Source: Streptomyces luteolifulvus (GTDB lineage Bacteria > Actinomycetota > Actinomycetes > Streptomycetales > Streptomycetaceae). Taken from it: 64,000 nt of DNA. Location of the stretch: contig NZ_VZRB01000008.1 of assembly GCF_008806595.1 (NCBI RefSeq), positions 148,826 to 212,825 on the forward strand, read 5' to 3'. Position numbers and translations under genes: made by a program. Positions 27,679 to 52,876 of this stretch are shown here, piece after piece; the stretch's first letter is position 1, and each line of letters begins with the position of its first letter. The notes beneath the pieces were generated by a model, which saw nothing but the letters and a program-made list of their open reading frames with translations, did not search any database and had not been told where the DNA came from.

Positions 27679-28398
27679 TCAGGTGACGACGGGATTCTGC
27701 CGCCACGAGTCAGCTACCAAGGCAGCCATCAGGGCGGCCACCTGATCGTCAGTCATGGCTTCTCGCAGTGCGATGGCGACCTCTTCGGGTCGGTTTGCTC
27801 GCAGAAAGAGCCACCCGTTTCCAGCAGACGGCTCAGGCGCGACTCGATGTCCATGGCCATGCTGGAGGATCCCGAATTCCGCGAGTTTTCCGCAGGCTCT
27901 CTTCACCGTCTCTCTGCTAACACCAAACTCGACGGCGTATGCCGTATGGGAGACCTTTGTTCCCGGCGGCAGTTCACCAGACTCGATTCTGCTGCGGATC
28001 AGCTCGGCGACGCGCATGTAGTGCTTGTTGGACTCTTCATGTGGTAGCAGTTCGGTTCTGGCGGCACGGGCTTGTTCAATGCGTTGGATTGCCTGGGGTG
28101 CGTGGGGATTGTCTCTGACGTTGAACCGGGGGCGTTCCTTGGCTATGGCGTCGATCTCGGCAAGTTCGGCGTCCAGTCGATTGCCGAACCATTCGTCTGT
28201 GCGCTTCGTCGCCAGCTTCCACCATGTGTCGTATGCGTTGCGAGCGTGCTGCTCGGCGCGGGCGTCGGGGTCGAAAGCGATCCCGACGTAAAGCAGGCAG
28301 CCGTCGGCTGCGAAGTATCGATAGAGGGCGGTACGCCCGTGAAGTGCTATGACCCCTCCTTGATGGATGGGATGATCGTGTACACGGGGCCCGCTCAC
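27679..28398 (-). CDS. GIY-YIG domain fused to a GntR winged helix
   Basis: A 239-residue protein. Residues 22-95 form a GIY-YIG-type domain: ALYRYF (the GIY strand), LLYVGIA (the YIG strand), an Arg near 47, acidic residues near 78-84 and PRFNV at 90-94. Residues 126-188 are a GntR winged helix (RVAELIRSRIESGELPPGTK, FGVSRETVKRACGKLAEFGI). This combination would pair DNA recognition with a nuclease-like or nuclease-derived domain. The GTG at 28398 has a poor ribosome site, whereas a perfect AAGGAGG (28355-28361) is followed by an in-frame ATA at codon 17, so the true start is uncertain. Confidence 0.8.
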   Translation of the reverse strand: MSGPRVHDHPIHQGGVIALHGRTALYRYFAADGCLLYVGIAFDPDARAEQHARNAYDTWWKLATKRTDEWFGNRLDAELAEIDAIAKERPRFNVRDNPHAPQAIQRIEQARAARTELLPHEESNKHYMRVAELIRSRIESGELPPGTKVSHTAYAVEFGVSRETVKRACGKLAEFGILQHGHGHRVAPEPSAGNGWLFLRANRPEEVAIALREAMTDDQVAALMAALVADSWRQNPVVT

Positions 28399-28430: not shown

Positions 28431-29165
28431 CTACCTTGCGTCCGGAACATCGATCTCCTTGGTTGGTGGATAGATGTCCTCCCAGTGCTCGATGGGGCCA
28501 TCCTGGTCATGGAACGTGACGTTCGTGACCAGCACGGCAACGGCGACGTGATCTGGTGCACTGATACCCAGGGCGTCGAGTTCATCTTGTGACGCCTGGC
28601 GCGCTCGCGCTCGCCGCTGGCCTCGGATGATCTCGTTTCCGGTGCGCTCGGTGTAGATCTGCTGCCAGAACTTCGGGAGTGGGCCGTCTTCGCTCACCTC
28701 GGGTACGGCGATCGTGGCGCGCGGATGAATGATCGACACACCGACAGACGTGGGTTTGCCGTCCTGCCGGAACGTGCGAATGCGGATGATCACTTCTTCG
28801 CCGGGGTCGATGTCGAGCGCCCTGCAGACCCGGATGTCGCGACAGGAGCGGCGCATGGCTCGGTGCCCCGTGGAGTCTTCCCCGGGCCCGTACCGCCTAC
28901 CGTTGCGCGCCATCCGGTCGAGTCGGTCGACGCCGCTGACGACGACAGGCAGGTCAGCCACGACCGTGCCGGCGCCAGCCCTTGTTGTGATGAGGCCCTC
29001 GGTCTTCAGCAAGTTGAAGGCTCTGGCGGCCGTGTTCCGGGCGACGCCGTGAATCTGAGCTAGCTCGTTCACGGTGGGCAGCTGGTCGCCCGGCCTCAGG
29101 TCGCCGTCGGTGATGCTCTGCCGGTACTCGGCGGCGATGTCCGCGTACCCCTTTCGGTTTTCCAT
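28431..29165 (-). CDS. GntR/UTRA-family repressor (KorSA/TraR-like)
   Basis: A 244-residue protein from ATG 29165, GGGAG upstream. Residues 5-70 are the winged helix (YADIAAEYRQSITDGDLRPG, HGVARNTAARAFNLLKTEGL). Residues ~85-235 match the UTRA effector domain (EVIIRIRTFRQDGKPTSVGV, IEHWEDIYP). In Streptomyces conjugative plasmids and AICEs, GntR proteins (KorSA, KorA, TraR) repress transfer and replication genes because unregulated tra expression is lethal to the host. It diverges from the transfer-like block across a triple operator. Confidence 0.85.
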   Translation of the reverse strand: MENRKGYADIAAEYRQSITDGDLRPGDQLPTVNELAQIHGVARNTAARAFNLLKTEGLITTRAGAGTVVADLPVVVSGVDRLDRMARNGRRYGPGEDSTGHRAMRRSCRDIRVCRALDIDPGEEVIIRIRTFRQDGKPTSVGVSIIHPRATIAVPEVSEDGPLPKFWQQIYTERTGNEIIRGQRRARARQASQDELDALGISAPDHVAVAVLVTNVTFHDQDGPIEHWEDIYPPTKEIDVPDAR

Positions 29166-31827: not shown

Positions 31828-33180
31828 ATGACCGCCAGCCCGCCCCTGAACGGCCACAAGCGGCCGGCCATGCCCGTGCTCGGGGACTGGCAGCCGGTCG
31901 AGCCCGAGCCCGTCGAGGAACAGCGCAGCCCCCAGCCCGAACCGCCAGTCGCCGACGCCGAAGTTGCCCGTGCCAGGGCATGGGCCGAAGCCGAAGAACG
32001 CCGCGTCGCCGCTGAAGCAGCGAAGGAAGAACGCCGCATCAAGGCGGAGGCTGAGGCCGACGCCATCCGAGCGAAGGGCGAGGAGGAAGCACGCCGGCTG
32101 CGGCTCGCCAACGACCGGCAGGAGCGGAAGGCCCGCGAGGACGACGCCGCCAGCGACGCCCGCATCGCCGAGTCCCACCGCAAGCGCGACGAAGCCAACC
32201 GCGCCAGCAAAGAGGCAGCCGAGCAGGCCAAGCGCACCAGCGAGGAGCAGGCCGAGGCTGCGAAGGAAGTCGCGGAAGCCGACGAGAAGTGGCGCAAATA
32301 TGCGATCCGCTTCGCGATCGTCTGCGCCATCGTCGCCCTGCCCGTCCAGATGAACGCGTTCTGGAACCGGGAAGCACCCTGGCTGATCGCCGCCCCGATC
32401 ATGCTGGAAGGTGCCGCATGGGTCGTGCACCGCGGCGCTCGCGCAGCTGTCGCCAATGGCCGGCCGGTCTGGCACTACCGCACCATCGTCTGGCTGTTCG
32501 CCCTGATCGCCGCCGCGATCAACCTGTTCCACGGGATCGCCGAGTTCGACCTCGGAACCGCGATCGGCACCGCGTTCGCCTCGGTCGCCGGCCCCGGCGT
32601 GTGGGATCTTCACGAGCACGGCCGCATCCGCAAGCGCGACGGCGTGAAGACCCGCCGCGAGCGCAAGGCGCAGGAGAAGGCGGCCAAGGTGGAGGCCGCA
32701 CGCAGGGCGTCGGAAGAGAAGCGGCGAGCCGCCGAGAACGAGGCCGCCGAGAAGGCCGCGGCGGAAGCCCGTAAGCGGCTCGCCGAGGACCGCGCCGAGC
32801 AGTTCCCGGACGTCTGGGACGAGGCCGTGAAGATCGCCGCCGCGGTCGGATCGACCACCGACGACGCCGCCGTGTGGGCGCGCGCCTACCGCAACATCAA
32901 GGGCTGCGACCCGGGCGAGTCCATCGAGTCCATCACCGCCCGCCGGGCCGCCGAGAAGCGCGTCGAAGCAGCCCTCACCGGCACACCCGTGAACACCCTC
33001 AGCAAGACCACGAACGCGCAGCGTGCGATCCAAGTGAAGGCGCCCCGGAAGACGTCCTCGTACAAGCCCGTTCCGCCCCGCCGGAAGAAGAACGACACCC
33101 CCAGGTTCCACCCCGCGGCGCGCGCCCTTGCAGCCGACGCCAAGCGCACCGCCAACGCCCGCCAGAAGGACGCGCCATGA
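31828..33180 (+). CDS. SpdB2/DUF2637-type spread membrane protein
   Basis: A 450-residue protein from ATG 31828. An Ala/Glu/Arg-rich coiled coil (about 45-165) precedes four hydrophobic segments (about 170-275), including VCAIVALPVQMNAFW, AAPIMLEGAAWVV, RTIVWLFALIAAAINLFHGI and TAFASVAGPGVWDLHEHG. These match the membrane domain of Streptomyces SpdB2-like proteins. A second charged coil and a basic tail follow. SpdB2 proteins interact with TraB and support spreading of plasmid DNA within recipient mycelium. It overlaps the TraB-like gene by 4 bases. Confidence 0.75.
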   Translation: MTASPPLNGHKRPAMPVLGDWQPVEPEPVEEQRSPQPEPPVADAEVARARAWAEAEERRVAAEAAKEERRIKAEAEADAIRAKGEEEARRLRLANDRQERKAREDDAASDARIAESHRKRDEANRASKEAAEQAKRTSEEQAEAAKEVAEADEKWRKYAIRFAIVCAIVALPVQMNAFWNREAPWLIAAPIMLEGAAWVVHRGARAAVANGRPVWHYRTIVWLFALIAAAINLFHGIAEFDLGTAIGTAFASVAGPGVWDLHEHGRIRKRDGVKTRRERKAQEKAAKVEAARRASEEKRRAAENEAAEKAAAEARKRLAEDRAEQFPDVWDEAVKIAAAVGSTTDDAAVWARAYRNIKGCDPGESIESITARRAAEKRVEAALTGTPVNTLSKTTNAQRAIQVKAPRKTSSYKPVPPRRKKNDTPRFHPAARALAADAKRTANARQKDAP

Positions 33181-35180
33181 GCATCGACCAGCACCCCGAA
33201 CTCCCGCCCGACTGGGATCTCAGCAAGGTGATCGAGGGCAGCCTCGTCGTGCCCGACGACCTGTCCGGCGAGGACATCGCGCCCGGCGTCCTGCTCCCTT
33301 ACGAGCCCTCCTACCCGGTGCTGCGGAAGACCGGCGGCGCGGCCATGGTCGTCGTGTCCAAGACGGCCCGGATGTGCGGGCTCACGGTCCGCTGGTTCGG
33401 TGCCGGGGCGAGCGCGGTGTCGTTCCTCGGCTGGCGGTACGTGCGCGCCCACGACCTTCAGGAAGTCCTCGGCGGCATGTCCAAGTCCGGCGACTGGAAC
33501 AAGGTCGACATCGTGCGCAAACGCCGCTGGAAGTTCCTCGGCTGGGCAGGTGTCGCCACCGCAGGCCTCAACCTCGCCGGCTGGTGGGCGCTCGTGAAGT
33601 TCGGCGGGATGACCGCGCTCGACTGGTCGTGGAAGATCCCGCCCGCCCTCACCGCCGCCGCCGCTGTCGCCGCGGTCACCCTGTACGGCCGCTACCGGGT
33701 CAACCGCCCGGAGCTGGCCCCGCAGCAGATCATCGCCGACCAGGACAACCCCGAGTCCGACGAGCCGTTCCCGCTCGCCCTGGCCACGTCGCCGGGCATG
33801 GTCGAGGACTGCGTCTCGCGCGCTCTCGCCTGGGAAGGCATCGGCACCCGGGCCGTGCGCGCCCTCGGCTTCCGCGGCAAGTTCTGGGAGATCGACGTCA
33901 TCCTCAAGGGATCCACCCCCGGCAAGGTCAACGCGGTCGCCGAGCAGCTGGACGCCCACTTCAACATCAAGCAGGGCGGCACGCTCATCGACCCCGACCC
34001 GGCCGAGTCCGCGCACCTCGTGCTCCGCCTCGTCACCGGCAACCCGTTCGAGGACATGGCCAAGCCCGCAGTGCACGCCCCGAACAGTCTCGACATCACC
34101 GACGCGCACAACTTCGGCCGCTGCATGGACGGCACGCCGCTGAACCTCGTCCTCGAGGGCCTGCGGATCCTCGTCATCGGCGTGTCCGGCGCCGCCAAAA
34201 CCACCGGTGTCCTCCGCGACCTCGCCGAGATCATCACCGCCTGCCACAACGCCATCGCCCTCGACCTCGACCCCGTCAAAGACGGGCTGCGCGAGTTCGA
34301 AGGCGTCATGGCCGCCCCGCCCATCCGCGGCAACAAGGCCTGCGAGGAATGGCTCAGCCACCTGGTGAAGATGGCCAAGGCCCGCAACACCGTCCGCAAC
34401 CGGCTCGACATGGGCGACACCTGGGTCGCCACCCGCAAACACCCGGCGATCTTCGTGTTCGTCGACGAGTTCATCTACCTCAGCCAGACAGCGAAGGAAC
34501 TCTTCATCGAACTCCTGCGCCTGGCCAAGCAGTCCGGCATCTACCCCGTCGCCGCAGGCCAGGACGCCACCAGCGACAGCATGGGCGACGCCATCGCCGA
34601 CACCTTCACCCTGCGCGTCATGCTCGCCTCCCGCTGGGACGACATCCGCGTCGTCTTCGGGCAGGGCTCCGCCGCCAAGGGCTTCCGCCCCGACCGGCTT
34701 GTGCCCGCCCAGAACAAGGACATCAAGAACGATGCGGGCCAGTCCTACATCAAGGGCCCCGGCCTGGACCGGCCGCTGCTGTACGGGTGGAACGAGCACA
34801 GCCGCGACGGCATCAAGCAGGCCGTCGCCGACCGCACCACGGCGGGCCGGCCGTCCTTCGACCGCGACACGTTGCAGGCCGCAGGACTGCTGCACCTGGC
34901 CGACGGGGGAGTCGAGCAGAAGCTGATCCCCGGCGACCGGCAGATCGTCGTCGACGCGATCGAGGTCATGGCCGACCTCAAAGTGGAGCGGATCCGGCCC
35001 GAGCCGCTCGCCGAAGCCCTCACCGACCTGAACCCCGACCTGTACGGCGACCTCACGACCGTCCAGCTGCGGAAGCTGCTGCGGGAGGCCGGGGTTGGCG
35101 CGCCGGTGCCGATCGGGGACATCGACGGGCTGACGAACCCGCGCGGCTACAAGCTCGAAGCCCTGACCGCTTTGACCTAG
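33177..35180 (+). CDS. FtsK/SpoIIIE-type DNA translocase, TraB-like conjugation ATPase
   Basis: A 667-residue protein. Hydrophobic segments lie near 68-88, 122-142 and 155-171. A soluble region precedes the motor domain: Walker A GVSGAAKTT (335-343), Walker B IFVFVDE (425-431), then GQDATSDSMGDAIADTFTLR. The C-terminal ~90 residues form a winged-helix-like domain (TVQLRKLLREAGVGAPVPIG). Streptomyces TraB is a single hexameric translocase that moves double-stranded plasmid DNA between hyphae, binding 8-bp TRS repeats through its C-terminal winged helix. The residue before the Walker A lysine is Ala340 rather than Gly, which is unusual. The symmetric hexamer array follows immediately. Confidence 0.85.
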   Translation: MSIDQHPELPPDWDLSKVIEGSLVVPDDLSGEDIAPGVLLPYEPSYPVLRKTGGAAMVVVSKTARMCGLTVRWFGAGASAVSFLGWRYVRAHDLQEVLGGMSKSGDWNKVDIVRKRRWKFLGWAGVATAGLNLAGWWALVKFGGMTALDWSWKIPPALTAAAAVAAVTLYGRYRVNRPELAPQQIIADQDNPESDEPFPLALATSPGMVEDCVSRALAWEGIGTRAVRALGFRGKFWEIDVILKGSTPGKVNAVAEQLDAHFNIKQGGTLIDPDPAESAHLVLRLVTGNPFEDMAKPAVHAPNSLDITDAHNFGRCMDGTPLNLVLEGLRILVIGVSGAAKTTGVLRDLAEIITACHNAIALDLDPVKDGLREFEGVMAAPPIRGNKACEEWLSHLVKMAKARNTVRNRLDMGDTWVATRKHPAIFVFVDEFIYLSQTAKELFIELLRLAKQSGIYPVAAGQDATSDSMGDAIADTFTLRVMLASRWDDIRVVFGQGSAAKGFRPDRLVPAQNKDIKNDAGQSYIKGPGLDRPLLYGWNEHSRDGIKQAVADRTTAGRPSFDRDTLQAAGLLHLADGGVEQKLIPGDRQIVVDAIEVMADLKVERIRPEPLAEALTDLNPDLYGDLTTVQLRKLLREAGVGAPVPIGDIDGLTNPRGYKLEALTALT

Positions 35181-35189
35181 AACATCCAC

Positions 35190-35341
35190 TGCTCGCGGGG
35201 TGCTCGCCACTGCTCGACCGCAGGTCACAGCCGCTCGACCAGGTGCTCGCCCAACTGCTCGCCGAAAACCCGAGCACCCAGCGAGCAGCACCCCGAGCGG
35301 CTCTGACCAGCAGCGGAGCACCCGCGAGCACCCGCCGAGCA
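35190..35341. repeat. Symmetric TGCTCG array, candidate TraB recognition (clt-like) locus
   Basis: Six TGCTCG-type hexamers point right (starts 35190, 35201, 35211, 35232, 35244, 35256) and six inverted copies follow (35271, 35282, 35294, 35315, 35325, 35336). The copies at 35232 and 35294 read CGCTCG/CGAGCG and that at 35315 reads GGAGCA. Start-to-start steps are 11, 10, 21, 12, 12, then 15, then 11, 12, 21, 10, 11: about one helical turn each and mirror-symmetric. It lies 10 bases behind the traB-like stop, where TRS/clt loci occur in Streptomyces plasmids. Confidence 0.8.
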
Positions 35342-35389
35342 CCACGCAAACCATTACAAAACGATCGACCGCACGAGGAGACCCCGATC

Positions 35390-36298
35390 ATGCCCGCGAA
35401 GCGCAAGCCGGCCCGCCGAACCACCGCTACGCGCCGCGGCAAGCCCGCAGCCCGCAAGCATCCCGCCAGCCGCGTCAAAGTCCCCCGCAAAGGTCCCCTG
35501 CACGCCCAGATCGGGGCGCGCATGGTCCTCTTCGCCGTCTCCAAGCTCGACAACCACGACGACGTCATCCGCTCCCGCAAAGACGCCGCAATCCTGCGCC
35601 TCACCCACGAAGGCTGCCCCACCTGCAAAGGCAACGGGCAGATCTTCACCAAAGGCAAGGACGGATCCTTCACCGGATCGAAGCCCTGCCCCGCAAAGCC
35701 CACCCGGCAGAAGGTGTCCCGTTGGGCGGTGTACAAGGCGTCCCGGTTCGGCGCCGACCAGCGCACCGGCCTCGTCGGCTGGACCTGCCCCTGCGGCAAG
35801 AAAGAGAAGCCCCGCTACCGGGACGCCAAGGAGGCCACCAAGGCGCTGCGTACCCACGAGCGGGCCAAGCACGGCGGCAAGACGGTCGGCGGCACCTGGT
35901 ACGGGCAGGCCACCGAAGCCGCCATCCAAACCGCACCCGAGAAGCCGGCGCCCGCCAAGAAGACCGCGGCCAGGACCCGGACCCCCAAAGCGCACGACCT
36001 CAGCAAGTACGAAGTACGCCGCGAACCCGCCCCATACAACCCAGCTGACCCGGCGATGGAACACCGCCGCAAGCCCGGCAGCAGCAACCCCGATGAAAAG
36101 AACCAGCACTCCGGGCTCACCGACTTCGAGTGGGTCACGCAAGACAAAGAGCGCAACGTCCTGCCCGGCGAATGCCCGCGTTGCAAAGGCACCAGCATGA
36201 TCTTCGCCCTCAATGCCGACGCCAAAGCCGACTACGACCGGCAGATCGTCATCCACTGCCCCAACAAGTCCTGCAGCGGCGGCCGAGTAGCCGCCTGA
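35390..36298 (+). CDS. Basic zinc-knuckle protein of the transfer-like block
   Basis: A 302-residue protein from ATG 35390, GAGGAG upstream. A Lys/Arg-rich N-terminus precedes CPTCKGNGQIF (DnaJ-like CxxCxGxG), a CPCG zinc site with a HERAKHGG motif (C2H2-like, about 143-165), and a terminal CPRCKGTSMIF plus CPNKSC pair. It is likely a nucleic-acid-binding protein. It sits right after the hexamer array, so it could act on it. Confidence 0.65.
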   Translation: MPAKRKPARRTTATRRGKPAARKHPASRVKVPRKGPLHAQIGARMVLFAVSKLDNHDDVIRSRKDAAILRLTHEGCPTCKGNGQIFTKGKDGSFTGSKPCPAKPTRQKVSRWAVYKASRFGADQRTGLVGWTCPCGKKEKPRYRDAKEATKALRTHERAKHGGKTVGGTWYGQATEAAIQTAPEKPAPAKKTAARTRTPKAHDLSKYEVRREPAPYNPADPAMEHRRKPGSSNPDEKNQHSGLTDFEWVTQDKERNVLPGECPRCKGTSMIFALNADAKADYDRQIVIHCPNKSCSGGRVAA

Positions 36299-41985: not shown

Positions 41986-42294
41986 TGTCGCACTGTGTGA
42001 CATCGGTGGCCCGGGAGCATGGCCAGACGATCTCCCGACGATCACAGCAAGCCCCTGACCTGCGCAAACGTGACGATCAGGAATCCAGACGGTTCGAAGT
42101 GATCAACGCGCAGGCCTCTGACCTGGGGGGATACTCCCCGTGACGATCTTCTGTCGGACCGCCGGGGAGGGCGCTCGATGCGTGTACGGGTCTGGGACGA
42201 CCAAGATCACGGGGTGTGTGACCCAGCGTGACCTACGCGCCTGCCGCAACGGCGGGCGCCGACGTGCCGCAACGGCACATGGAGAGTGATCGCA
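41986..42294. other. Noncoding interval before terminase; cos/pac candidate
   Basis: About 300 bases with no convincing gene. It holds a direct repeat TGCCGCAACGGC at 42242-42253 and 42265-42276, and a GGGGGATACTCCCC hairpin near 42126-42139. Lying between the HNH and small-terminase genes, it is a natural place for the packaging site. Confidence 0.4.
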
Positions 42295-42912
42295 ATGGCA
42301 GGTATGGGACCCCCTCCCAAGCCGGCCGGGGAGCGACGCAGGCGCAACGCCACGATCGCCATGACCCGGCTGCCGGCAGGAGGACGGAAGGGTGACCCGC
42401 CCAAGTGGCCGCTGATCGATGACGTCGTCGCGACGACGCAGCGGGACATGGCTCGCCGTCAGGCCGACGAGTACGAACTCCAGCTGCTGGAGCCGGATCT
42501 ACAGGGCCGTCAGCGGGCTGCGGTGCAGCGGAAGCTGGACGGGGCGCAGGCTGCGGCGACGGTGCTGGACAAGCAGATCGAGGCCACCGCCGCCCTGGAG
42601 GCGGAGCTGTGGCGGGATCTGTGGGCGACGCCTCAGGCGGCTGCGTGGGAGAGGCTGGGATGGACTCGTGAGGTCGCGCAGTACGTCCGCTGGAAGGTGA
42701 AGGCTGAGCTCGGTGATCTGGACGCCTCGAAGGAGGCTCGGCAGCTGGGTGACCGTCTGGGGCTGACGCCGCTGGCGCTGCTGCGGCTGCGCTGGGAGAT
42801 TGCGCCGGACGAGGTGGCCGAGCAGAGGCAGGAGCGTTCGACGCAGGCGCGGAAGAAGACTGCCCGGCAACGGCTGCGGGTCGTCGACAGCGAAGCCGCC
42901 GGGGGGTCGTGA
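42295..42912 (+). CDS. terS: Terminase small subunit
   Basis: A 205-residue protein from ATG 42295, GGAGAG 8 bases upstream. PPPKPAGERRRRN and the LDKQIEATAALEAELWRDLW helix, followed by WERLGWTREVAQYVRWKVKA and LGLTPLALLRLRW, match actinophage small terminases. It would recognise packaging-site DNA and guide the large subunit. Directly upstream of the large subunit gene. Confidence 0.8.
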   Translation: MAGMGPPPKPAGERRRRNATIAMTRLPAGGRKGDPPKWPLIDDVVATTQRDMARRQADEYELQLLEPDLQGRQRAAVQRKLDGAQAAATVLDKQIEATAALEAELWRDLWATPQAAAWERLGWTREVAQYVRWKVKAELGDLDASKEARQLGDRLGLTPLALLRLRWEIAPDEVAEQRQERSTQARKKTARQRLRVVDSEAAGGS

Positions 42913-43100
42913 TGGCGCAGCTGGTGAAGCTTGAGCCGGGCGACATCCTCGTACTGGCGAACGTCGGCGAGTGTCAGGCGGAAGCTATCCAGGAGCACTG
43001 GGAGTCGGTGCGCGAGGCGATCGGCGTCGAGCACATCCTCGTCTTCGAGGGTGACGTCGATCTGAGCAAGGTGTCTGCGGATGCCCTGGCGAGGCCCTGA
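42912..43100 (+). CDS. Small protein between terminase subunits
   Basis: A 62-residue protein from ATG 42912. LVKLEPGDILVLANVGECQA ... ILVFEGDVDLSKV is compact and alpha/beta. Small genes of this kind occur here in many actinophages, with no known function. It overlaps the large terminase gene by 20 bases. Confidence 0.6.
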   Translation: MAQLVKLEPGDILVLANVGECQAEAIQEHWESVREAIGVEHILVFEGDVDLSKVSADALARP

Positions 43101-44652
43101 CCATCCGGGCGAGTTCCCTACGCTGGGGTGGCTGGTCGGGGAGTGGATTGAATCCCATTGCGTGATCCCGGACGGCGACGACATCGGCGAGCCGTACCTA
43201 CTGACGGACGAGATGTGGACGTTCCTGGCCTGGCACTATCGGCTGCGTCCGGACGCCACCGAGGACGGCTGGCGTTCGGCCTGGCACTACAGGCGAAGCC
43301 AGCTGGTGCGCCCGCAGAAGTGGGGCAAGGGTCCGCTGACGTGCGCGATGGTGTGCGCGGAGGCGGAGGGCCCGGTGCGGTTTGCGGGCTGGGATGCGGA
43401 CGGCGAGCCGGTGGGGCGGCGGTGGGAGACGCCGTGGATCCAGATTGCGGCGACTTCTGAAGATCAGACGGACAACGTGTACCGCGCGCTCGTTCCGATG
43501 ATCAATGAGGGGCCGTTGGCGGACATCATCCCGGACACCGGGGAGACCCGCATCAACGTGCCGGGCGGCGGTCGCATCGAGCCGGTCACCAGCTCGGGCC
43601 GTGCCCGCCTGGGCCAGCGGATCACGTTCGCTGTGCAGGACGAGACGCACTCCTGGCTGGAGGCGAACGGCGGTTGGAGGCTCGCCGAGACCCAGCGCAG
43701 GAACCTGTCCGGCACGGGCGGGCGCGCGGTGGAGACGACGAACGCGTGGGATCCGTCCGAGCAGAGCGTGGCGCAGAGAACGGCGGAGGCATCCGTCCGG
43801 GACGTGTACCGCGATCACCGGATTCCGGCGCCGGCATCGCTGGCGAACAAGCGGGAGCGGCACAAGGCGCTGCGCGTCGCCTACGGCGATTCCTCCGTGC
43901 TCGTCGGCGGCTGGGTTGATCTGGACCGCATCGACGGCGAGCTGGTCGAGATTGCGGAGAAGGATCCCGCACAGGCGGAGCGCTTCTACCTGAACCGGAT
44001 CGTGGCCGGTACGGGCGCGTACATCGACGGCGACCGGTGGGATCTACGGCTGGCGCTGCAAGAGGTTGAGCCGGGCGCTGCGGTGACGCTGGGCTTCGAC
44101 GGTTCGGACATTGACGACTGGACCGGCATCCGCCTCGAGACCCTGGACGGCTACCAGTTCACCCCGGTCTATGGCCCGGACCGTCGGCCGACGGTGTGGA
44201 ATCCGGCGGAGTGGGGCGGGCAGGTGCCGCGGCTGGAGGTCATGGCCGCGTTCGACGAGGTGTTCGCGACGTACCGCGTAGTGCGCGCCTACCTCGACCC
44301 TCCCTATTGGGAGACCGAGGCGGACACGCTGGCCGACCGGCATGGCGAGAAGGTCGTGGTGCGCTGGTACACGAACCGGATTGTGCAGATGCACGGTGCG
44401 GCCGAGCGGCTGGCGACGGACGTGACGAAGAAGGACTCGACGTTCTGGCACGACGGCTGCACGTGGGCGGGCCAGCACATCCGCAACGCCCGTAAGGCGG
44501 CGCGGCCTGCCGGGCGTTACCTGCTGAAGAAGGCGTCGGAGTCCCAGAAGATCGACATTGCGATGTGTTCGATTCTCGCCCACGAAGCCGCTGGCGACGC
44601 GATCGCCGCGGGCCTGGCCAAACCGAAGCGGCGCAGGGTCGCCGGGTTCTGA
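43081..44652 (+). CDS. terL: Terminase large subunit
   Basis: A 523-residue packaging motor. A degenerate Walker A lies in RPQKWGKGPL (about 78-86), Walker B in ITFAVQDE (181-188) with catalytic Glu188, and coupling ETTNAWDP at 218-224. The nuclease acidic residues are Asp340 and Asp343 in LGFDGSDIDD, a DPPYWE motif, and C-terminal Asp in SQKIDIAMCS. It translocates DNA into procapsids and cuts it. Confidence 0.95.
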   Translation: MPWRGPDHPGEFPTLGWLVGEWIESHCVIPDGDDIGEPYLLTDEMWTFLAWHYRLRPDATEDGWRSAWHYRRSQLVRPQKWGKGPLTCAMVCAEAEGPVRFAGWDADGEPVGRRWETPWIQIAATSEDQTDNVYRALVPMINEGPLADIIPDTGETRINVPGGGRIEPVTSSGRARLGQRITFAVQDETHSWLEANGGWRLAETQRRNLSGTGGRAVETTNAWDPSEQSVAQRTAEASVRDVYRDHRIPAPASLANKRERHKALRVAYGDSSVLVGGWVDLDRIDGELVEIAEKDPAQAERFYLNRIVAGTGAYIDGDRWDLRLALQEVEPGAAVTLGFDGSDIDDWTGIRLETLDGYQFTPVYGPDRRPTVWNPAEWGGQVPRLEVMAAFDEVFATYRVVRAYLDPPYWETEADTLADRHGEKVVVRWYTNRIVQMHGAAERLATDVTKKDSTFWHDGCTWAGQHIRNARKAARPAGRYLLKKASESQKIDIAMCSILAHEAAGDAIAAGLAKPKRRRVAGF

Positions 44653-44668
44653 CCGAGAGGGGGCGTGG

Positions 44669-46063
44669 ATGCCTCAGCCTGCAGTTCAGTCCCCGGAGTG
44701 GTGGCGGGATCGCCTGTACAAGAAGCTGTGCGATCGGTCCAAGGAGACCGCGAAGTTCGACGAGTACTACGAGTGCGAGCATCCGCTGCCGTTCCTGCAC
44801 GAGAAGGCCAGGGATCCGTTTCGGCGGCTGTTGAAGATGTCACGCGCCAATTACATGGAGCTTGTCGTCGACGCGCTGGTCGGGCGCCTGGAGGTGGCCG
44901 GGTTCCAGTCCGACAGTACGGGCAAGGCGGATGAGGCGGCGTGGGGGCTGTGGCAGGACAACAACCTGGACGGGGGCTCGTCTCTGGCGTTCCTGGAGGC
45001 GGCGATCCGGGGCGAGTCGTACCTGCTGGTGTCTCCTCCGGAGGGACGTCGCGCGGGCTGGCGGATCACGCCCGAGCACCCCACCCAGGTGATCACGGAG
45101 GCGGTGCCGGGCGAGCCGGGCGAGTTGGCTGCGGCACTGAAGTTGTGGGTGGACGACTGGACGGCGAGGCTGTGCGCCACGCTCTATCTGCCTGACCGGA
45201 TCTACAAGTTCGAGGCGCCGGAGCCGAAGACGGGTGAGAACCCGAGGTGGGTGCGCCGAGAGGTGCGCGGCGAGGAGTGGGGCGGCAAGAACCTGCTGGG
45301 TGAGCTGCCGTTCGGGGTGCTGGCGAACCGGCCGCGGATGCTGAAGCCGGGCGCCAGCGAGTTGCGTTCGGTGACGGGTATCCAGGACCGGATCAACAAG
45401 ACGATCACGGACCGGATGATGACGCAGGAGTTCGCGGCGTTCCCGCAGAAGTGGGTGACGGGGATGGAGATCCCCGTCGATGAGAAGACCGGCCAGGAGG
45501 TTCAGCCGTTCGATGTGGCGGTGAACCGAATCCTGATGGCCGAGGACCCGGGCGCTCACTTCGGGCAGTTCGCCGCCGCGGACTTGGGCGGCTACCTGAA
45601 GGGCAAGGAAGCCGACGTTCACGACATCGCCGCGATCACCTCGACGCCTCCGCACTACCTCCTCGGCTCGATGATCAACCTGTCGGCGGAGGCGCTGAAG
45701 GCGGCCGAAGCGGGCCTGATCCACAAGATCTACCAGCGGCGCCGGTTCCTCGAGGAAGGCCTGGAGCGCACGATGCGGCTGGCCGGGTTCGCCTCATCTC
45801 AGGCCCGCATCGTATGGAAGTCCCCGGAGTGGCGGACAGAGGGCGAACTGGTTGACGCGCTGGTCAAGATGGGGACGCTCGGGGTTCCGCGCGAGGTGCT
45901 GTGGGAGCGGTGGGGTGCTACGCCGCAGGAGATCGAACGCTGGCGGCGCCTGAGCGAGGACGCGCTGACCCGGGCGCTGGAGGGCGACCTGGCGGCCGAG
46001 TACGGGCCGAAACCCGAAACGGCTCCGGGCCAGCCTGAACAGGCGCCGCAGGCGGCCTACTGA
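44669..46063 (+). CDS. Portal protein
   Basis: A 464-residue protein from ATG 44669, GAGAGGGGG upstream. WRDRLYKKLCDRSKETAKFD, YMELVVDALVGRLEVAGF, LAFLEAAIRGESYLLVSPP and the TSTPPHYLLGSMINLSAEAL segment match SPP1/gp6-like portals. Twelve copies form the DNA channel at one capsid vertex and dock the terminase. Confidence 0.92.
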   Translation: MPQPAVQSPEWWRDRLYKKLCDRSKETAKFDEYYECEHPLPFLHEKARDPFRRLLKMSRANYMELVVDALVGRLEVAGFQSDSTGKADEAAWGLWQDNNLDGGSSLAFLEAAIRGESYLLVSPPEGRRAGWRITPEHPTQVITEAVPGEPGELAAALKLWVDDWTARLCATLYLPDRIYKFEAPEPKTGENPRWVRREVRGEEWGGKNLLGELPFGVLANRPRMLKPGASELRSVTGIQDRINKTITDRMMTQEFAAFPQKWVTGMEIPVDEKTGQEVQPFDVAVNRILMAEDPGAHFGQFAAADLGGYLKGKEADVHDIAAITSTPPHYLLGSMINLSAEALKAAEAGLIHKIYQRRRFLEEGLERTMRLAGFASSQARIVWKSPEWRTEGELVDALVKMGTLGVPREVLWERWGATPQEIERWRRLSEDALTRALEGDLAAEYGPKPETAPGQPEQAPQAAY

Positions 46064-47103
46064 TGGCCGTCTCGCAGCGTGAGGCCGTTGATGTGGCGTT
46101 CGCCTATTACGCGGCTCAGGCACGCCTGGTGCGGCGGACCACGAATCGTGTGCAGCGGCTGTGGCGCACGCTCGACGCGGGCAATCTGTCCGGGTCGTGG
46201 CAGGCCCTGGTGGGGCCGGGGGTGATGGAGGCGGTGACGGCCGGGCAACTGGCCGCCGCCGCCCAGGCCGACCCCTACCTCGACGCGGTCGAGGCCGCGG
46301 ACGGCGTCGAGGAAGAAGCGGACACCAGGGTGCGGGCAGCATCCTTCGCGGGGGTCGCCTCGGACGGCCGGGCGCTGGACACGCTGCTGTACCTGCCGGT
46401 CATCTCGACGAAGCAGGCGATCGGCGTGGGCGCCTCGGATGTGGACGCGATGATGCGCGGCCTCAACCAGCTGCTGCGCATGTCGGCGACACAGGTCGCG
46501 GACGCGGGCCGTACTGCGGTGGGTGCGGGCATCGCCGGCAGGCGCACGATCCAGGGCTACATCCGCATCGCTGCGGCCCCGTGCTGCGCCCGCTGCGCCA
46601 TCCTCTCGGGCAAAGAGTTCGGCTGGAACCGCGGTTTTCAACGCCATCCCCGCTGCGACTGCATTCACATGCCGGCCACCCTGATCGCACGAGGCCGGGG
46701 CGGGCGGGGCCTGGTCCCGCCACGGCAGGGCCTGGTGACGAACGCCCAGGACTACTTCAACGGGCTGTCCCGCCGCGAGCAGGAGCGCATCTTCACTGTC
46801 GCCGGGGCGCGGGCGATCCGTGACGGAGCAGACATCACGTCGATCGTGAATGCCCGCCGCGGCATGGCCACCGCTTCGGCCTACGGAAGACAACTCCAGG
46901 TGACCCGTGAGGGCACGACGCGGCGTGGTGCGTTCTACCGCTCGGAACGGGCTCGTGCCATCGCCCGCGGGCAAGCCCCGGCGAACATCGGCCGCTCGTT
47001 CCGGCTGCGCACCCCCCGGCTGATGCCGGAAGAGATCTACCGGCTCGCTGGGAGCCGGGACGAGGCGATCGCCATGCTGCGCCGCTTCGGCTACCTGACC
47101 TGA
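46063..47103 (+). CDS. MuF-like minor head protein
   Basis: A 346-residue protein one base after the portal stop (ATG overlaps TGA). The central CCARCAILSGKEFGWNRGF and HPRCDCIHMP are the Cys/His signature of MuF-like capsid morphogenesis proteins. It is probably carried inside the head and attached to the portal. Confidence 0.85.
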   Translation: MAVSQREAVDVAFAYYAAQARLVRRTTNRVQRLWRTLDAGNLSGSWQALVGPGVMEAVTAGQLAAAAQADPYLDAVEAADGVEEEADTRVRAASFAGVASDGRALDTLLYLPVISTKQAIGVGASDVDAMMRGLNQLLRMSATQVADAGRTAVGAGIAGRRTIQGYIRIAAAPCCARCAILSGKEFGWNRGFQRHPRCDCIHMPATLIARGRGGRGLVPPRQGLVTNAQDYFNGLSRREQERIFTVAGARAIRDGADITSIVNARRGMATASAYGRQLQVTREGTTRRGAFYRSERARAIARGQAPANIGRSFRLRTPRLMPEEIYRLAGSRDEAIAMLRRFGYLT

Positions 47104-47145
47104 CCGCGCGCAACGCGCGGCCTGATCCCGCAACGGGAGCACCAC

Positions 47146-47697
47146 ATGTCCGAAACCGCAACCGAAACCACCGTGCCCGAAGGTGGCGCCGGCCCAGCCA
47201 GCCCTGCCGAACCGGCTGGGCCGCCTGAGGGTGGCGATGCCCCGCTCGGGCCAGCAGGGGAGAAGGCGCTCGACGAGTGGAAGCGGCGTGCCAAGGAAGC
47301 CGAGAAGGCCGGCCGCGCGCAGGCCGCCAGGCTCAAGGAGATCGAGGACCGGGACAAGACGGAGCTACAGAAGGCGTCGGAGCGAGCCGACGCGGCCGAG
47401 AAGCGTGTCGCCGCAATGGCTGACCGTGCCGTTCGTGCCGAGGTCCGGGCCCTGGCTGCTGCAACATTCGCCGACCCGTCCGATGCTGCGGCGTTCCTCA
47501 ACCCGTCCGACTTCGTCGACGGCGACGGAGACGTCGACACCAAGGCGGTCGAGAAGGCGCTCGCCGACCTGCTGAAGCGCAAGCCCCACCTCGGCAAGGA
47601 AGCGGCACCCCCGTCCTTCGACGGCGGCGCGCGCACAACGGCGGCGGCACCTGCCGACATGAACGCCCTGATCCGCCAGAAGGCGGGCCTGGGCTGA
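47146..47697 (+). CDS. Capsid scaffold protein
   Basis: A 183-residue protein from ATG 47146. Disordered Pro/Gly/Glu N-terminus, a long charged coiled coil (WKRRAKEAEKAGRAQAARLK), then FLNPSDFVDGDGDVDTKAVE and a short C-terminal helix: the standard actinophage scaffold layout just before the major capsid gene. Confidence 0.88.
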   Translation: MSETATETTVPEGGAGPASPAEPAGPPEGGDAPLGPAGEKALDEWKRRAKEAEKAGRAQAARLKEIEDRDKTELQKASERADAAEKRVAAMADRAVRAEVRALAAATFADPSDAAAFLNPSDFVDGDGDVDTKAVEKALADLLKRKPHLGKEAAPPSFDGGARTTAAAPADMNALIRQKAGLG

Positions 47698-47753
47698 CCC
47701 ATCTCCGGCGCGGCGAGGTCCGGCCGGCTGACGAGAAATGAGGAGGCCGGACC

Positions 47754-48698
47754 ATGGCCTACAACAACCTGACCTCGCGGACGGACGCTGCGGCGCTCAT
47801 CCCGGAAGAGGTCTCCAACGAGATGCTCGGCAAGGCGCTGGAGCAGTCCGCCGTCCTGTCGATGTTCCGGCGTGTGCCGGTGGGCCGGGCGCAGGTCCGG
47901 TTCCCGGTGCTGTCGGCGCTGCCGACCGCGTACTTCGTGTCGGGTGACACCGGTCTGAAGCAGACGACCGAGGTCAACTGGACGAACAAGTACCTCAACA
48001 TCGAGGAGATCGCGGCGATCATGCCGGTCCCGGACAACGTCCTGGCCGACGTGGACGCCAACGTGTGGGACGAGGCTATGCCGCTGCTGACCGAGGCTTT
48101 CGGCCGCACGCTCGACGCGGCCGTCTACTTCGGCACCAACGCTCCCAGTTCCTGGCCGACGAACATCGCCTCCTCGGCGACGTCCGCCGGCAACAACGTG
48201 ACCGCCAACTCGGCGGCCACCGCGGGCGCGTTCTTCGGTGACGTCGACAACGCCTACGAGAAGCTTGAGGCCGACGGCTACGACGCGACGGGCTTCGTCG
48301 GCGCGACCTCGGTGAAGACGCGGCTGCGGAAGTCGCGTGACAGTCAGGGCCGCAAGCTCGACGAGTCCCGCGTGGCCGGGAACCTGATGTCCCTGGACGG
48401 CCTGCCGATCATGTACCCGATGCGTGGTCTGTTCCCGACCGCATCCGGGTCGCCCACTCTGTTCATGGGCGACTGGTCGCAGTTCGTCGTGGGCGTCCGC
48501 CAGGACATCACGATGAAGGTGCTGACCGAGGCTGTCATCCAGGACAACACCGGGGCCATCGTCTACAACCTCGCTCAGCAGGACATGACCGCCATCCGCC
48601 TGACCTTCCGGGTCGGCTGGCAGGTCGCGAACACGATCAACAACGACCAGCCGACCGAGGCGAACCGCTACCCGGTCGCCCGCATCGACCTGCCGTAA
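47754..48698 (+). CDS. Major capsid protein (HK97 fold)
   Basis: A 314-residue protein from ATG 47754, GAGGAGG upstream. AALIPEEVSNEMLGKALEQS, the VPVGRAQVRFPVLSALPTAY strand, KYLNIEEIAAIMPVPDNVLA and the terminal VGWQVANTINNDQPTEA are typical of HK97-type major capsid proteins in actinophages. It forms the icosahedral shell. Confidence 0.93.
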   Translation: MAYNNLTSRTDAAALIPEEVSNEMLGKALEQSAVLSMFRRVPVGRAQVRFPVLSALPTAYFVSGDTGLKQTTEVNWTNKYLNIEEIAAIMPVPDNVLADVDANVWDEAMPLLTEAFGRTLDAAVYFGTNAPSSWPTNIASSATSAGNNVTANSAATAGAFFGDVDNAYEKLEADGYDATGFVGATSVKTRLRKSRDSQGRKLDESRVAGNLMSLDGLPIMYPMRGLFPTASGSPTLFMGDWSQFVVGVRQDITMKVLTEAVIQDNTGAIVYNLAQQDMTAIRLTFRVGWQVANTINNDQPTEANRYPVARIDLP

Positions 48699-48725
48699 CC
48701 CGGCCCGCAGAAGAGGAGCACTCTC

Positions 48726-49130
48726 ATGGCAGACACCGCCCCCTACGTGCGGGTCATCGAAGCGGACGTGCCCGCAGCGGCGACAGCCGCGAGCGACGAC
48801 TCGGTCATCGCACAGGCACCGTTCGACTGCACGGTTACGGCTGTGCAGTACGTCCCGGAGGCCGCCATCACTGGCGCGGCCACCAACAATCGGACTGTCA
48901 CCCTCGTGAACAAGGGGCAGGCAGGCTCTGGCAGTACCACGGTGGCGACGCTGACGTTCGACTCGGGCGTCGACGGAACCGCCAACGATGAGAAGACGAT
49001 CACCCTGTCGGGTACCGCCGCGAACCTGGTGCTGGCCTCCGGCGACACCCTGCAGTGGCGGTCCATCGCGAACGGCACCGGGCTGGCCGACCCGGGCGGT
49101 CTGGTCCGCATCACCGTCTCTCGGAACTGA
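48726..49130 (+). CDS. Putative head decoration protein
   Basis: A 134-residue beta-rich protein from ATG 48726, GAGGAG upstream. VIAQAPFDCTVTAVQYVPEA and VTLVNKGQAGSGSTTVATLT; it follows the major capsid gene, where decoration or head-fiber proteins are often encoded. Confidence 0.65.
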   Translation: MADTAPYVRVIEADVPAAATAASDDSVIAQAPFDCTVTAVQYVPEAAITGAATNNRTVTLVNKGQAGSGSTTVATLTFDSGVDGTANDEKTITLSGTAANLVLASGDTLQWRSIANGTGLADPGGLVRITVSRN

Positions 49131-49141
49131 GGAGCAGTCCC

Positions 49142-49369
49142 ATGACAGAGCGAAAGACCGCCGCCCCCAAGGATGCGGCACAGCAGGAAGCGCAGAAGAC
49201 CATCGACAGGGCGGAGGAGCGCGGTCTCCTCGGCGTCGAGGTTGACCCCACTCCGAACGAGAACTACACGGTGGCGGGTGTGCTGGCCGGCGCCCCCACC
49301 CCGGAGACGGACCTGGACCACGCCCGCCAGGTCCGGCAGCAGCTCGACGACGACGCGCGCCAGCGCTGA
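49142..49369 (+). CDS. Small head-region protein
   Basis: A 75-residue charged protein from ATG 49142, GAGGAG upstream. GLLGVEVDPTPNENYTVAGV in the middle. Similar short proteins lie before head-tail connectors in Streptomyces phages; role unknown. Confidence 0.6.
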   Translation: MTERKTAAPKDAAQQEAQKTIDRAEERGLLGVEVDPTPNENYTVAGVLAGAPTPETDLDHARQVRQQLDDDARQR

Positions 49370-49387
49370 CGAGGGGAGGCGGCTGCC

Positions 49388-49957
49388 GTGGCTCTTCCCC
49401 CGTTCGCTACGGCGGCCGAACTCGACGCCGCCACCCAGTCCACGATTCCTGCGGCGACTGCTGATCTGGCGCTGGCTTCCGCGTCGGCGGTCATCCGCCG
49501 GTGGACGCGGCAGGACATCACCCGGGTCGCCGATGATGTGGTGACGCTGCGAGTGATCGATGAGTGCGAGCTGGTGCTGCCGCAGCGGCCGGTGGTGTCG
49601 GTTGCGCAGGTGAGGGTGAACAGTCTCGTACTCTCAGACTGGGTGCTGTCCGGTGACCGGCTCTTGCGCACGGGAGGCTGGCGGCACCTCCCCGGTACCA
49701 CGACCTATCCGGACCCGGGCCTGGTGGAGGTTACGTACACCCACGGCTGGGATGAGATCCCGGGCGATGTGCGGGCCGTCTGTCTGGACCTCGCGGCCAT
49801 GACCGTCACCAACCCGTCCGGGCTGCGAAGCGTGGCGATCGACGACTACTCCCGTACCTACGCCACGGAGACCCTTGGCGCCGGGACGCTGTCGACCGCG
49901 CACAAGGAGATGCTGACGCCCTACCGGCGACGCATCGGCACGGTGACGCTCCGGTGA
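49388..49957 (+). CDS. Head-tail connector (gp6-like adaptor)
   Basis: A 189-residue protein from GTG 49388. TAAELDAATQSTIPAATADL, ASAVIRRWTRQDI and GLVEVTYTHGWDEIPGDVRA match the HK97 gp6/adaptor family. It forms the ring under the portal. Confidence 0.82.
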   Translation: MALPPFATAAELDAATQSTIPAATADLALASASAVIRRWTRQDITRVADDVVTLRVIDECELVLPQRPVVSVAQVRVNSLVLSDWVLSGDRLLRTGGWRHLPGTTTYPDPGLVEVTYTHGWDEIPGDVRAVCLDLAAMTVTNPSGLRSVAIDDYSRTYATETLGAGTLSTAHKEMLTPYRRRIGTVTLR

Positions 49958-50370
49958 CCGCCCTGGAGGCAGCGCTGGCGGCTGGCCGTCGTGAGGCCGA
50001 GGCGCTGATGCGGGACATGGTGACGATCTACCGGCCGGGTCCGGACATCTTCGACCGGACCACCGGCGGCACGATTCCCGGTGCGTCCGAGGTCACCTTC
50101 TACACCGGCAAGGCGCGGGTGAAGCCGGATCAGCTCGCCGACTCCGAGGTGCAGGCCGGTGAGCGGGAAGTCGCGCTGCGCCAGTACAAGGTGACCGTTC
50201 CGTTCTCGACGCTTCTGCCGTCTTCGGGGGTTCGACCGCGGCCCGGGGATGTGGTGGATGTGACGGCGTCGCCGGATCCGCGGCTTGCGGGTCTCCGGCT
50301 GTGGGTGACGAGTGTGCAGTACTCGGGCACGGCCACGGCGTGGCGGATCATCGCGGAGGACCGGTCATGA
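49954..50370 (+). CDS. Head-tail stopper (DUF6093 type)
   Basis: A 138-residue protein in a GTGA overlap. VTIYRPGPDIFDRTTGGTIP, YTGKARVKP and VTVPFSTLLP are characteristic of DUF6093 head-tail joining proteins. Likely the stopper between adaptor and tail. Confidence 0.78.
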   Translation: MTALEAALAAGRREAEALMRDMVTIYRPGPDIFDRTTGGTIPGASEVTFYTGKARVKPDQLADSEVQAGEREVALRQYKVTVPFSTLLPSSGVRPRPGDVVDVTASPDPRLAGLRLWVTSVQYSGTATAWRIIAEDRS

Positions 50371-50756
50371 TCAATGCCAACACCAGGCAGCTCGACGAGC
50401 TCGCCAACGTGTTCCGCGTGAACGCGGTGCGGGCACAGGTGCAGGCGCGGGCAGTGGTGGCCCGTGGCGCCCTGAACGTCAAGAACGGCTGGCGGGCCAA
50501 CGCGACCGCATCCGCCGGCCAACATGCGCGGCTGTACCCGTCCAGCATCAGCTACGACATGAAGCCGCATCCGACCGGGGCGTCCGCGGAGATCGGCCCG
50601 GACAAGGGCAGGCCGCAGGGCGCGCTGGGCAACCTGCTGGAGTTCGGCTCCGTGCACAATCCGCCGCACATGGACGGCGCCAGGGCGCTCGCGGCCGAGG
50701 CGGCGGCGTTCACCGCGCACGTGGCTGCGATCGGCGCGCAGATGGGGCGCGGATGA
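50367..50756 (+). CDS. Tail completion protein (HK97 gp10-like)
   Basis: A 129-residue protein in an ATGA overlap. KNGWRANA, YPSSISYDMKPHPTGASAEI and LLEFGSVHNPPHMDGARALA match the gp10-like family that completes the head-tail interface. Confidence 0.82.
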   Translation: MINANTRQLDELANVFRVNAVRAQVQARAVVARGALNVKNGWRANATASAGQHARLYPSSISYDMKPHPTGASAEIGPDKGRPQGALGNLLEFGSVHNPPHMDGARALAAEAAAFTAHVAAIGAQMGRG

Positions 50757-51154
50757 CGACGCCGGCGGTGCTGCCCCACCGGGACGCGGTGCGTGCGGCT
50801 CTGGAGGCTGCGCAGCTTGTGGTGGGGCTTGGAGGCGCGCCTGATCCGGTGCCGTCGTCGGGGATGTATGTCGTCCTCTACTTCACGCCGGGCCAGTCCC
50901 TGCCGGAGTCGCTGGCTGATGCGCGCACGGACTTCGACAGCCTCTTCCAGGTCACGTGTGTGGGCCCGGATGAGGAGCGCTGTCTGTGGCTGGCTGACAA
51001 GGTCCGCACCGCGCTGTACGGGCCGCTGACCGTGGCCGGGCGGGTGGTGTGGCGGCCTGAGGAGCTCGGCGGGCCCCCGGTGCAGCGCGACGACGACGTA
51101 TCCCCGCCGCTGTTCTACGTGCCGGTGCAGTACCGGCTCCAATCAACGTCCTAG
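50753..51154 (+). CDS. Tail terminator protein
   Basis: A 133-residue protein in an ATGA overlap. YVVLYFTPGQSLPESLADAR, FQVTCVGPDEERCLWLADKV and VSPPLFYVPVQYRL fit the tail-terminator family that caps the tail tube. Confidence 0.82.
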   Translation: MTTPAVLPHRDAVRAALEAAQLVVGLGGAPDPVPSSGMYVVLYFTPGQSLPESLADARTDFDSLFQVTCVGPDEERCLWLADKVRTALYGPLTVAGRVVWRPEELGGPPVQRDDDVSPPLFYVPVQYRLQSTS

Positions 51155-51166
51155 GAGGAGAGCCCC

Positions 51167-51499
51167 GTGGCCACTCTCAGCACTCAGACCATCGTTGCCG
51201 CCGGGCTCGACCCGACCTATGCGGCAGCGGCCGGCGGCGGCGACAAAGTCGTCCCCGGTTCGACGACATTCCTGCACGTCATCAACGGCGGCGGCTCGCC
51301 GGTCACCGTCACGGTGGCGGCGCCCGGCAACTTCTACGCGGCTGTCGCGAACCCGGACTTGGCGGTCACGGTGGACGCCTCCGGCGAGAAGATGATCCCG
51401 ATCCCTGCGACGCCGTTCGGTGACCCGGCCGACTCCGGCCTTGCGGCCGTCACCTACTCCGGCGTGACCAGCGTGACCGTCGCCGCCCTGCGCATCTGA
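51167..51499 (+). CDS. Small beta-rich virion protein
   Basis: A 110-residue protein from GTG 51167, AGGAGGAG upstream. LHVINGGGSPVTVTVAAPG and AAVTYSGVTSVTVAALRI suggest an immunoglobulin-like structural domain, perhaps a head or tail decoration. Confidence 0.7.
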   Translation: MATLSTQTIVAAGLDPTYAAAAGGGDKVVPGSTTFLHVINGGGSPVTVTVAAPGNFYAAVANPDLAVTVDASGEKMIPIPATPFGDPADSGLAAVTYSGVTSVTVAALRI

Positions 51500-51521
51500 C
51501 CTTCCACCCTCAACCCAGCTC

Positions 51522-51546: not shown

Positions 51547-51568
51547 ATGCCCCGAAGGAGGCACTGCC

Positions 51569-52868: not shown

Positions 52869-52876
52869 GGTGAGCC

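Follow-up and report, generated by a model that had tools for sequence, protein, structure and literature searches.

A mirror-symmetric hexamer array behind a TraB-like gene in a Streptomyces prophage as a candidate loading site for the encoded DNA translocase

Array anatomy and prophage context

What role might a cluster of short repeats play that lies directly behind a gene for a TraB-like DNA translocase? In the window (the whole stretch of Streptomyces luteolifulvus DNA that was analysed, 64,000 nucleotides), direct reading and a position scan identified twelve TGCTCG-type hexamers at 35190–35341, nine exact and three with one variant base, separated by 9 bp from the TAG stop codon (35178–35180) of a 667-aa gene. 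The left half (35190–35261, plus strand) contains six direct copies starting at 35190, 35201, 35211, 35232 (CGCTCG), 35244, and 35256, and the right half (35271–35341, minus strand) six inverted copies starting at 35271, 35282, 35294 (CGAGCG), 35315 (GGAGCA), 35325, and 35336. The spacing of 11, 10, 21, 12, and 12 bp, then 15 bp, then 11, 12, 21, 10, and 11 bp reproduces the twelve-hexamer, mirror-spaced array claimed in an earlier sequence-only reading of this DNA. That reading had taken the 21-bp gaps for one skipped helical turn, but each gap is occupied by a second conserved element, an 8-bp box of the general form GCAGGTCA / TGACC(T/A)GC. Direct reading places GCAGGTCA at 35220–35227 (plus strand) in the left gap and its mirror copy TGACCAGC at 35304–35311 (minus strand) in the right gap, and with the boxes included each half comprises seven registers of one helical turn. 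The array lies in non-coding DNA and ends 5' of the ribosome-binding site of the gene at 35390, from which it is separated by an A-rich tail (CAAACCATTACAAAAC, 35347–35362, plus strand) that is kept in the consensus of 13 family members.

The array is real and beyond chance. Within 160 bp it holds nine exact TGCTCG (five plus, four minus), compared to three in the best 160-bp stretch elsewhere (window positions 1–35100 and from 35401 on). In the 200 bp 3' of the stop codon, the best 6-mer occurs nine times versus a mean maximum of 2.6 in shuffled sequences, and 0 of 200 shuffles equalled this count. TGCTCG is also enriched in the window as a whole, with 100 copies versus 63 ± 7.4 in shuffles. 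Outside the array, minus-strand copies outnumber plus-strand copies by 35:20 on the left and 23:13 on the right, a lean that fits the codon usage of the plus-strand genes. Strand polarity does not change at the array, and KOPS-like polar guidance by TGCTCG was rejected because the same strand lean is found on either side. A scan of the host assembly (9.03 Mb, 105 contigs) for three direct TGCTCG copies with gaps of 4–16 gave six matches at five places, the array among them. Three of the four other places were inspected and contain 3–4 TGCTCG per 160 bp, on a single strand each, and thus none of these three forms a cluster dense enough to rival the array, which was the outcome that the earlier reading had named as damaging to its proposal.

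The element that carries the array, left unspecified in the sequence-only reading, is a prophage, as evident from its integrase, terminase, portal, head protease, capsid, tape measure, and amidase genes together with flanking direct repeats. It is 68.5 kb long, extending from window position 669 to coordinate 69215, and is bounded by a perfect 202-bp direct repeat, the left copy of which (669–870) is identical to 69215–69416 beyond the window. This is long for an attachment repeat, and the left copy lies within a frame on the minus strand (672–905) that we take to be dodecin-like. A tyrosine integrase gene (1028–2311, minus strand) adjoins the left end, and the structural and lysis genes, from terminase to amidase, are located at 42286–62280 on the plus strand. 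A DnaC/IstB-like helicase loader (16640–17359), likely a phage replication gene, is encoded far from the array. At 27679–28398 (minus strand) lies a gene whose product has a C-terminal half containing a GntR domain and an N-terminal half that we presume to be GIY-YIG-like from its motif, and a second regulator gene of the GntR/UTRA type adjoins at 28431–29159. Immediately upstream of the translocase gene, a DUF2637-like protein (31828–33180, plus strand) has 28% identity over 228 aa (E 3e-16) to a protein encoded at the same place on plasmid pFP1. The next gene 3' of the array (35390–36298, plus strand) shows no tie to it, as the arrays of relatives precede several unrelated genes.

The translocase and arrays behind related genes

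The gene in front of the array (33177–35180, plus strand) encodes a divergent FtsK/SpoIIIE (TraB-like) DNA translocase of 667 aa, in which sequence reading identified a Walker A-like GVSGAAKTT, a DEF box, and a hydrophobic N-terminal stretch. It is TraB-like and not a plasmid_TraB equivalog, with a match to this NCBIfam model of only E 0.002 and 16.7 bits versus a cut-off of 800. A search with Pfam FtsK_SpoIIIE gave no match up to E 10. Because the protein matches phrog_12531 (FtsK/SpoIIIE-like, E 2e-69), and because a profile–profile comparison (hhalign) gave an alignment of 435 columns (E 1.9e-10), extending into the winged helix, with four translocases for which Pfam FtsK (PF01580) is matched, it is assigned an FtsK-type P-loop motor domain.

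The C-terminal domain (residues 577–667, 34905–35177, plus strand) is the proposed reader of the hexamers. AlphaFold2, run on 27 sequences, predicts that this domain folds as a winged helix (mean pLDDT 88); only this C-terminal fold was used, the full-length single-sequence model having a pLDDT of 34. The best fold matches are winged-helix proteins, with Rex repressors first (Z about 7), a similarity that may reflect just a common arrangement and lends general support to DNA binding. FtsK gamma is absent among the best 50 matches of either fold search, which proves nothing either way, and no Pfam family was assigned to the domain up to E 10. Sequence matches to solved structures (a designed repeat protein, centrin- and calmodulin-type chains, and one viral protein) were weak and taken as chance, as were 31 matches in isolated phages (best E 0.3, Pseudomonas and Xanthomonas phages), the annotated ones of which are virion proteins. 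The corresponding domain of locus L028 gave no match in isolated phages.

Four named genome contigs, all from Streptomyces, contain a relative of the translocase gene, and further relatives were found on viral contigs and plasmids. To count arrays, loci with identical first 120 bp were merged, resulting in 102 loci, and three Stanwilliamsviridae loci, which represent negative examples, were omitted to leave 99; L067, containing runs of N, had been dropped before the counts. In 71 of these 99 non-redundant loci, the region 3' of the translocase gene beat 100 of 100 shuffles, versus 0 of 102 for the 3'-terminal 200 bp of the genes themselves (a control that takes in three lytic-type phages) and 1 of 66 for the region 3' of terminase matches. 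With a less strict threshold, at most 5 of 100 shuffles reached the count in 85 of the 99 loci and more than 5 did so in the other 14. The array is thus conserved in relatives, a check that the sequence-only reading had put forward for its claim. Among the first 13 viral contigs with relatives of the gene, 10 share the window-type C-terminus and the layout with a varying hexamer: TGCTCA in L033, L037, and L040 and CCCTCG in L036 are located at the positions of TGCTCG among close relatives. An unrelated C-terminus is encoded in L042–L044, and these have CGTCTA- or CCGGCG-type repeats. The Stanwilliamsviridae phages Evy, Naboo, and Angela, which are presumably lytic, encode a related FtsK-like motor with about 32% identity; these three differ in that none carries an array behind the gene, and the following gene begins immediately in the two that are annotated.

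The mirror layout is conserved among these arrays. In the 58 loci with a window-type C-terminal domain, 479 of 482 non-palindromic sites fit a single plus-then-minus split, with the split point left free and with 17 window-family loci sharing positions by descent; L027 and L028 contain plus sites only and L051 palindromic sites only. For 22 loci with other C-terminal domains, which were preselected for arrays passing the shuffle test with failing loci left out, a split, in either polarity, accommodates 144 of 153 sites, and the mirror is complete in 15 loci. As to the constant box, both forms (GCAGGTC and GACC[TA]GC) are present in 58 of 102 non-redundant loci and in 0 of 74 control stretches. 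The GCAGGTCA / TGACC(T/A)GC box is unchanged while the hexamer varies, also on plasmids, and probably binds something common to these elements. A role as a guide for the host FtsK was considered for the GCAGGTCA box and rejected, as CGCAGGTCA occurs 100 times forward and 99 times reverse in one same-genus genome with no switch among the first 100 places listed. Comparison of the loci shows that the layout is conserved while the hexamer copies change in concert.

Plasmids encode such arrays as well, including pFP1 and pSLUN2. On pFP1, the order of a GntR gene, a DUF2637 gene, an FtsK-like frame, and the array matches that of the prophage; the FtsK-like frame was located by tblastn and is absent from the gene table of the record. 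Among pFP1, pSLUN2, and similar Streptomyces plasmids, CTCTAC-type arrays with the same GCAGGTCA boxes occur on four. These plasmids differ from the window in having another C-terminal domain and hexamer and no terminase match (0 of 4 plasmid records: pFP1, pSLUN2, and two others), and pFP1 also encodes a MobF relaxase. Phage genes were searched for in 25 of 42 distinct viral contigs that encode the translocase, and the terminase phrog_9 was found in 16, the portal phrog_104 in 17, either in 21, and neither in 4. Judged by eye, the matches listed for the window's own terminase family and those for the translocase have no contig in common. As relatives of the translocase gene are accompanied by phage genes, the pFP1 gene order is alike, and the plasmids lack a terminase match, the translocase–array module seems to be exchanged between phages and plasmids. 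Of the extrachromosomal relatives found, the closest, L078, is located near 39.5 kb on the circular Streptomyces plasmid CP042280.1 (92.6 kb) and has a P-type domain and a TGCTCG array; it has an open frame of 607 codons and is identical in its DNA to L085. We also considered CP042280.1 as a phage-plasmid and rejected this, as the terminase search gave no match.

Hexamer identity and the C-terminal winged helix

Variability of the hexamer was compared to that of the C-terminal domain in 58 loci, obtained by merging near-identical pairs of C-terminus and array. The best hexamer-tracking residue is the one before [ILV]G in the first wing strand (P645 in the window), which corresponds to residue 69 of the model and follows the putative recognition helix (residues 52–62). 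With P or G at this position and an NPRG wing, the main base 6 of the hexamer is G in 13 of 13 loci, and with T it is A in 29 of 32, G in two, and tied in one (L016). All six loci with Q have a GCTA core, L155 being counted on a 5:5 tie, and all five with K lack a TGCT-type array (0–1 sites). Proline in another wing goes with other sites, namely CCCTCG with an NPNG wing (L036) and mixed GATC sites with a WQRG wing (L051). In summary, P or G is found with TGCTCG, T with TGCTCA, and Q with GCTA. Many T-type arrays (L011, L066, L073, L138, L140, and similar ones) contain, beside TGCTCA, the palindrome TGATCA at positions that are fixed, and base 3 of T-type hexamers may thus be C or A; the palindrome has no direction, which bears on the idea of two-way loading.

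Among the C-terminal columns, 645 was the best predictor of motif type, with 47 of 51 correct in leave-one-out trials from which the K, CCTCG, and tie rows had been excluded, compared to a majority baseline of 30 and 41 for the next best column. In a second viral set, for which the rule was fixed before retrieval, 20 of 22 loci fit by core bases, a scoring chosen after the rule and looser than it, and 18 of 22 by exact hexamers (TGCTCG, TGCTCA, or TGCTA). The misses by core bases are L131 and L132 (T with G at base 6), to which exact scoring adds L145 (a tie) and L155. Since the 22 loci are related to the first set and 17 are T-type, they provide a helpful test and not an independent one, and the arrays of the three new Q loci, the most telling cases, are degenerate. 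In a tree built from the motor part (57 rows, built with a quick method and having many open forks; L078 was omitted, as its called start left 109 aa before the domain), the residue changes 14 times, the motif 19 times, and the joint label 19 times. Four independent pairs on supported branches were available for each contrast, of which a mean of 3.9 (T versus P/G) and 4.0 (Q) show the motif as predicted and 0 the opposite, with a median p of 0.125 and with branches that the two sets may share.

The gene behind the array does not account for this pattern. A next gene could be recognised in 53 of the 58 loci, the other five being left out, and these genes form 13 groups; both residue type and hexamer vary within the two main groups (24 and 17 loci), indicating that the next gene is not the cause. 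The comparison shows that hexamer identity follows the predicted C-terminal winged helix of the translocase rather than the downstream gene, and it is probably the translocase's own tail that reads the hexamers.

Proposed function, rival explanations, and known systems

On the strength of these comparisons, we consider it likely that the array is a clt-type cis-acting loading site read by the winged helix of the upstream FtsK/TraB-like translocase, whereby we infer both the binding and the transfer. The earlier proposal that the TraB-like gene is associated with a transfer or DNA-loading locus thus gains support, since the array is conserved behind relatives and the hexamer co-varies with the C-terminal domain. 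Copies of this domain would bind the hexamers, one per helical turn on a single face of the DNA, and the bound domains could seat the motor on the excised prophage DNA. As the two halves of the array point in opposite directions, they may load two motors facing opposite ways, which would pump both arms of the circular element across a septum or into a neighbouring hypha. In the manner of a conjugative plasmid, the phage genome could in this way reach other parts of the mycelium, or other mycelia, with no need for lysis. A broader version of this proposal is put forward more tentatively and may well not hold: Streptomyces prophages, plasmids, and other FtsK-type elements would share a two-way loading site, its phased mirror hexamers placing two TraB-like motors back to back or face to face so that both arms pump a closed circular phage genome through septa, specificity would be set largely by wing residue 645 (P, T, Q), joint exchange of this residue and the twelve sites would allow an element to escape cross-mobilisation, and phages would spread in a plasmid-like manner without lysis.

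The main doubt concerns purpose, since segregation within the lysogen would leave the same marks. The translocase might bind the array just as proposed, yet be loaded to partition the element, when excised or replicating, across septa of the hyphae and spores of the lysogen itself, in the manner of FtsK or SpoIIIE and not for transfer to other mycelia. We regard this as a serious though somewhat unlikely alternative, suggested by the FtsK/SpoIIIE homology of the protein and by the listing of actinobacteriophage ftsK among genes potentially manipulating host development (PMC10117723). It is at odds with the hexamers being local, with no polar sites along the element, and with the gene order shared with pFP1, a plasmid whose replication and conjugation loci are the subject of a publication, as its title states. 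Control of the downstream genes by a regulator or by the translocase itself, with the array as an operator, would agree with its position between two genes of the same orientation and with an A-rich tail that could hold a promoter. This is improbable given that arrays precede unrelated genes (13 groups in 53 loci), that a search of 34900–35700 for sigma-70-type promoters, the one type covered, gave no match, and that an operator does not usually have as many as twelve phased sites; autoregulation might still be a secondary role of the array.

Iterons of a replication origin, bound by a phage replication initiator, can likewise consist of short and inverted repeats within 100–300 bp, as described for the RepA iteron of pWTY27 (PMC3583192). 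An origin is nevertheless highly improbable here, as the motif follows the C-terminal domain of the translocase, which is also the adjoining gene, and the DnaC-like loader of the prophage is located at 16.6 kb. Moreover, pFP1 is reported to have a RepA-bound repA/iteron locus (PMC3583192), yet its array lies behind its FtsK-like frame. A hairpin that acts as an RNA terminator or attenuator, or as a DNA cruciform, would explain why the array strand folds strongly as RNA (z −9.0), with inverted arms of 61 nt that are 75% complementary. Among 13 family members, however, complementarity between the halves is 80% for hexamers and 87% for boxes but 30% for spacers, which suggests that paired sites are kept rather than a stem. 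No terminator-like site was found at the array, and a hairpin needs neither alike repeats within an arm nor a motif that tracks a protein residue, making this explanation extremely improbable.

The proposed loading site can be compared to several known systems. FtsK with KOPS and SpoIIIE with SRS are motors of the FtsK fold, guided by short DNA sequences that a winged helix recognises. KOPS and SRS sites are scattered and polar along the chromosome, whereas the array is one local two-way cluster. Reportedly, Vogelmann et al. (2011) dealt with TraB and the 8-bp TRS repeats of the pSVH1 clt. The TraB protein of pSVH1 resembles the translocase described here in its FtsK-like motor and a C-terminal winged helix, which in TraB reads short repeats (PMC3583192, PMC4170104, PMC12857230), and differs in that the repeats are 8-bp TRS instead of hexamers. 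Recognition by pSVH1 TraB is reported to be mediated by helix alpha 3 (PMC3583192), while the best-tracking residue here is on the wing. More generally, TraB-type translocases move double-stranded DNA, with clt repeats read by the C-terminal winged helix (PMC3583192, PMC12857230).

Among known systems, the array comes nearest to TraB-TRS/clt of Streptomyces conjugative plasmids. One of these, pWTY27, has its clt directly behind the gene of the FtsK-type TraA, with a length of about 160–175 bp and short as well as inverted repeats (PMC3583192). Footprinting revealed two protected regions in this clt, which spans 16 bp of traA and the 159 bp that follow and whose repeats are both direct and inverted; TraA is a protein of 688 aa with transmembrane segments (PMC3583192). 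Compared by description, pWTY27 differs in having four 7-bp TGACACC repeats on a 14-kb plasmid (PMC3583192), in contrast to twelve hexamers in exact mirror arrangement and two constant boxes in a prophage. The possibility of a new class, raised in the sequence-only reading, is therefore not supported, as TraB-type translocases reading short clt repeats directly behind their own gene are known, with pWTY27 as an example (PMC3583192). In a literature search that covered few subscription papers, none of the titles and abstracts listed dealt with such an array or with TraB transfer by phages. As far as this search goes, the clt-like array in prophages, the anatomy of mirror and boxes across phages and plasmids, and the one-residue rule relating motor and site are new.

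If the proposal is true, a sequence rule would be available to find the transfer site of many actinobacterial elements; for the archetypal AICE pSAM2, the clt motif was still undescribed at the time of PMC9513070. Temperate phages would also be linked to TraB-type transfer, which would provide a further reason for phages to have FtsK-like genes, beyond the manipulation of host development to which these have been attributed (PMC10117723). The change of the signs along with one amino acid suggests how elements mark their DNA for intercell transport, and the proposal would open to experiment how a hexameric pump for double-stranded DNA moves a closed circle and how motor and site remain matched during divergence.

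Finally, repeats were noticed behind FtsK/TraB-like open reading frames in other genomes of the same genus. Judged by eye, CTACC/GGTAGAGG repeats are accompanied by a GACCTGC or CACCTGC box in L114–L117, L119–L121, L123, L124, and L126, while L118, L125, L127, and L128 have other repeats and the sequence of L122 ends early. The CTACC/GGTAGAGG repeats are possibly the clt of AICE-type elements.
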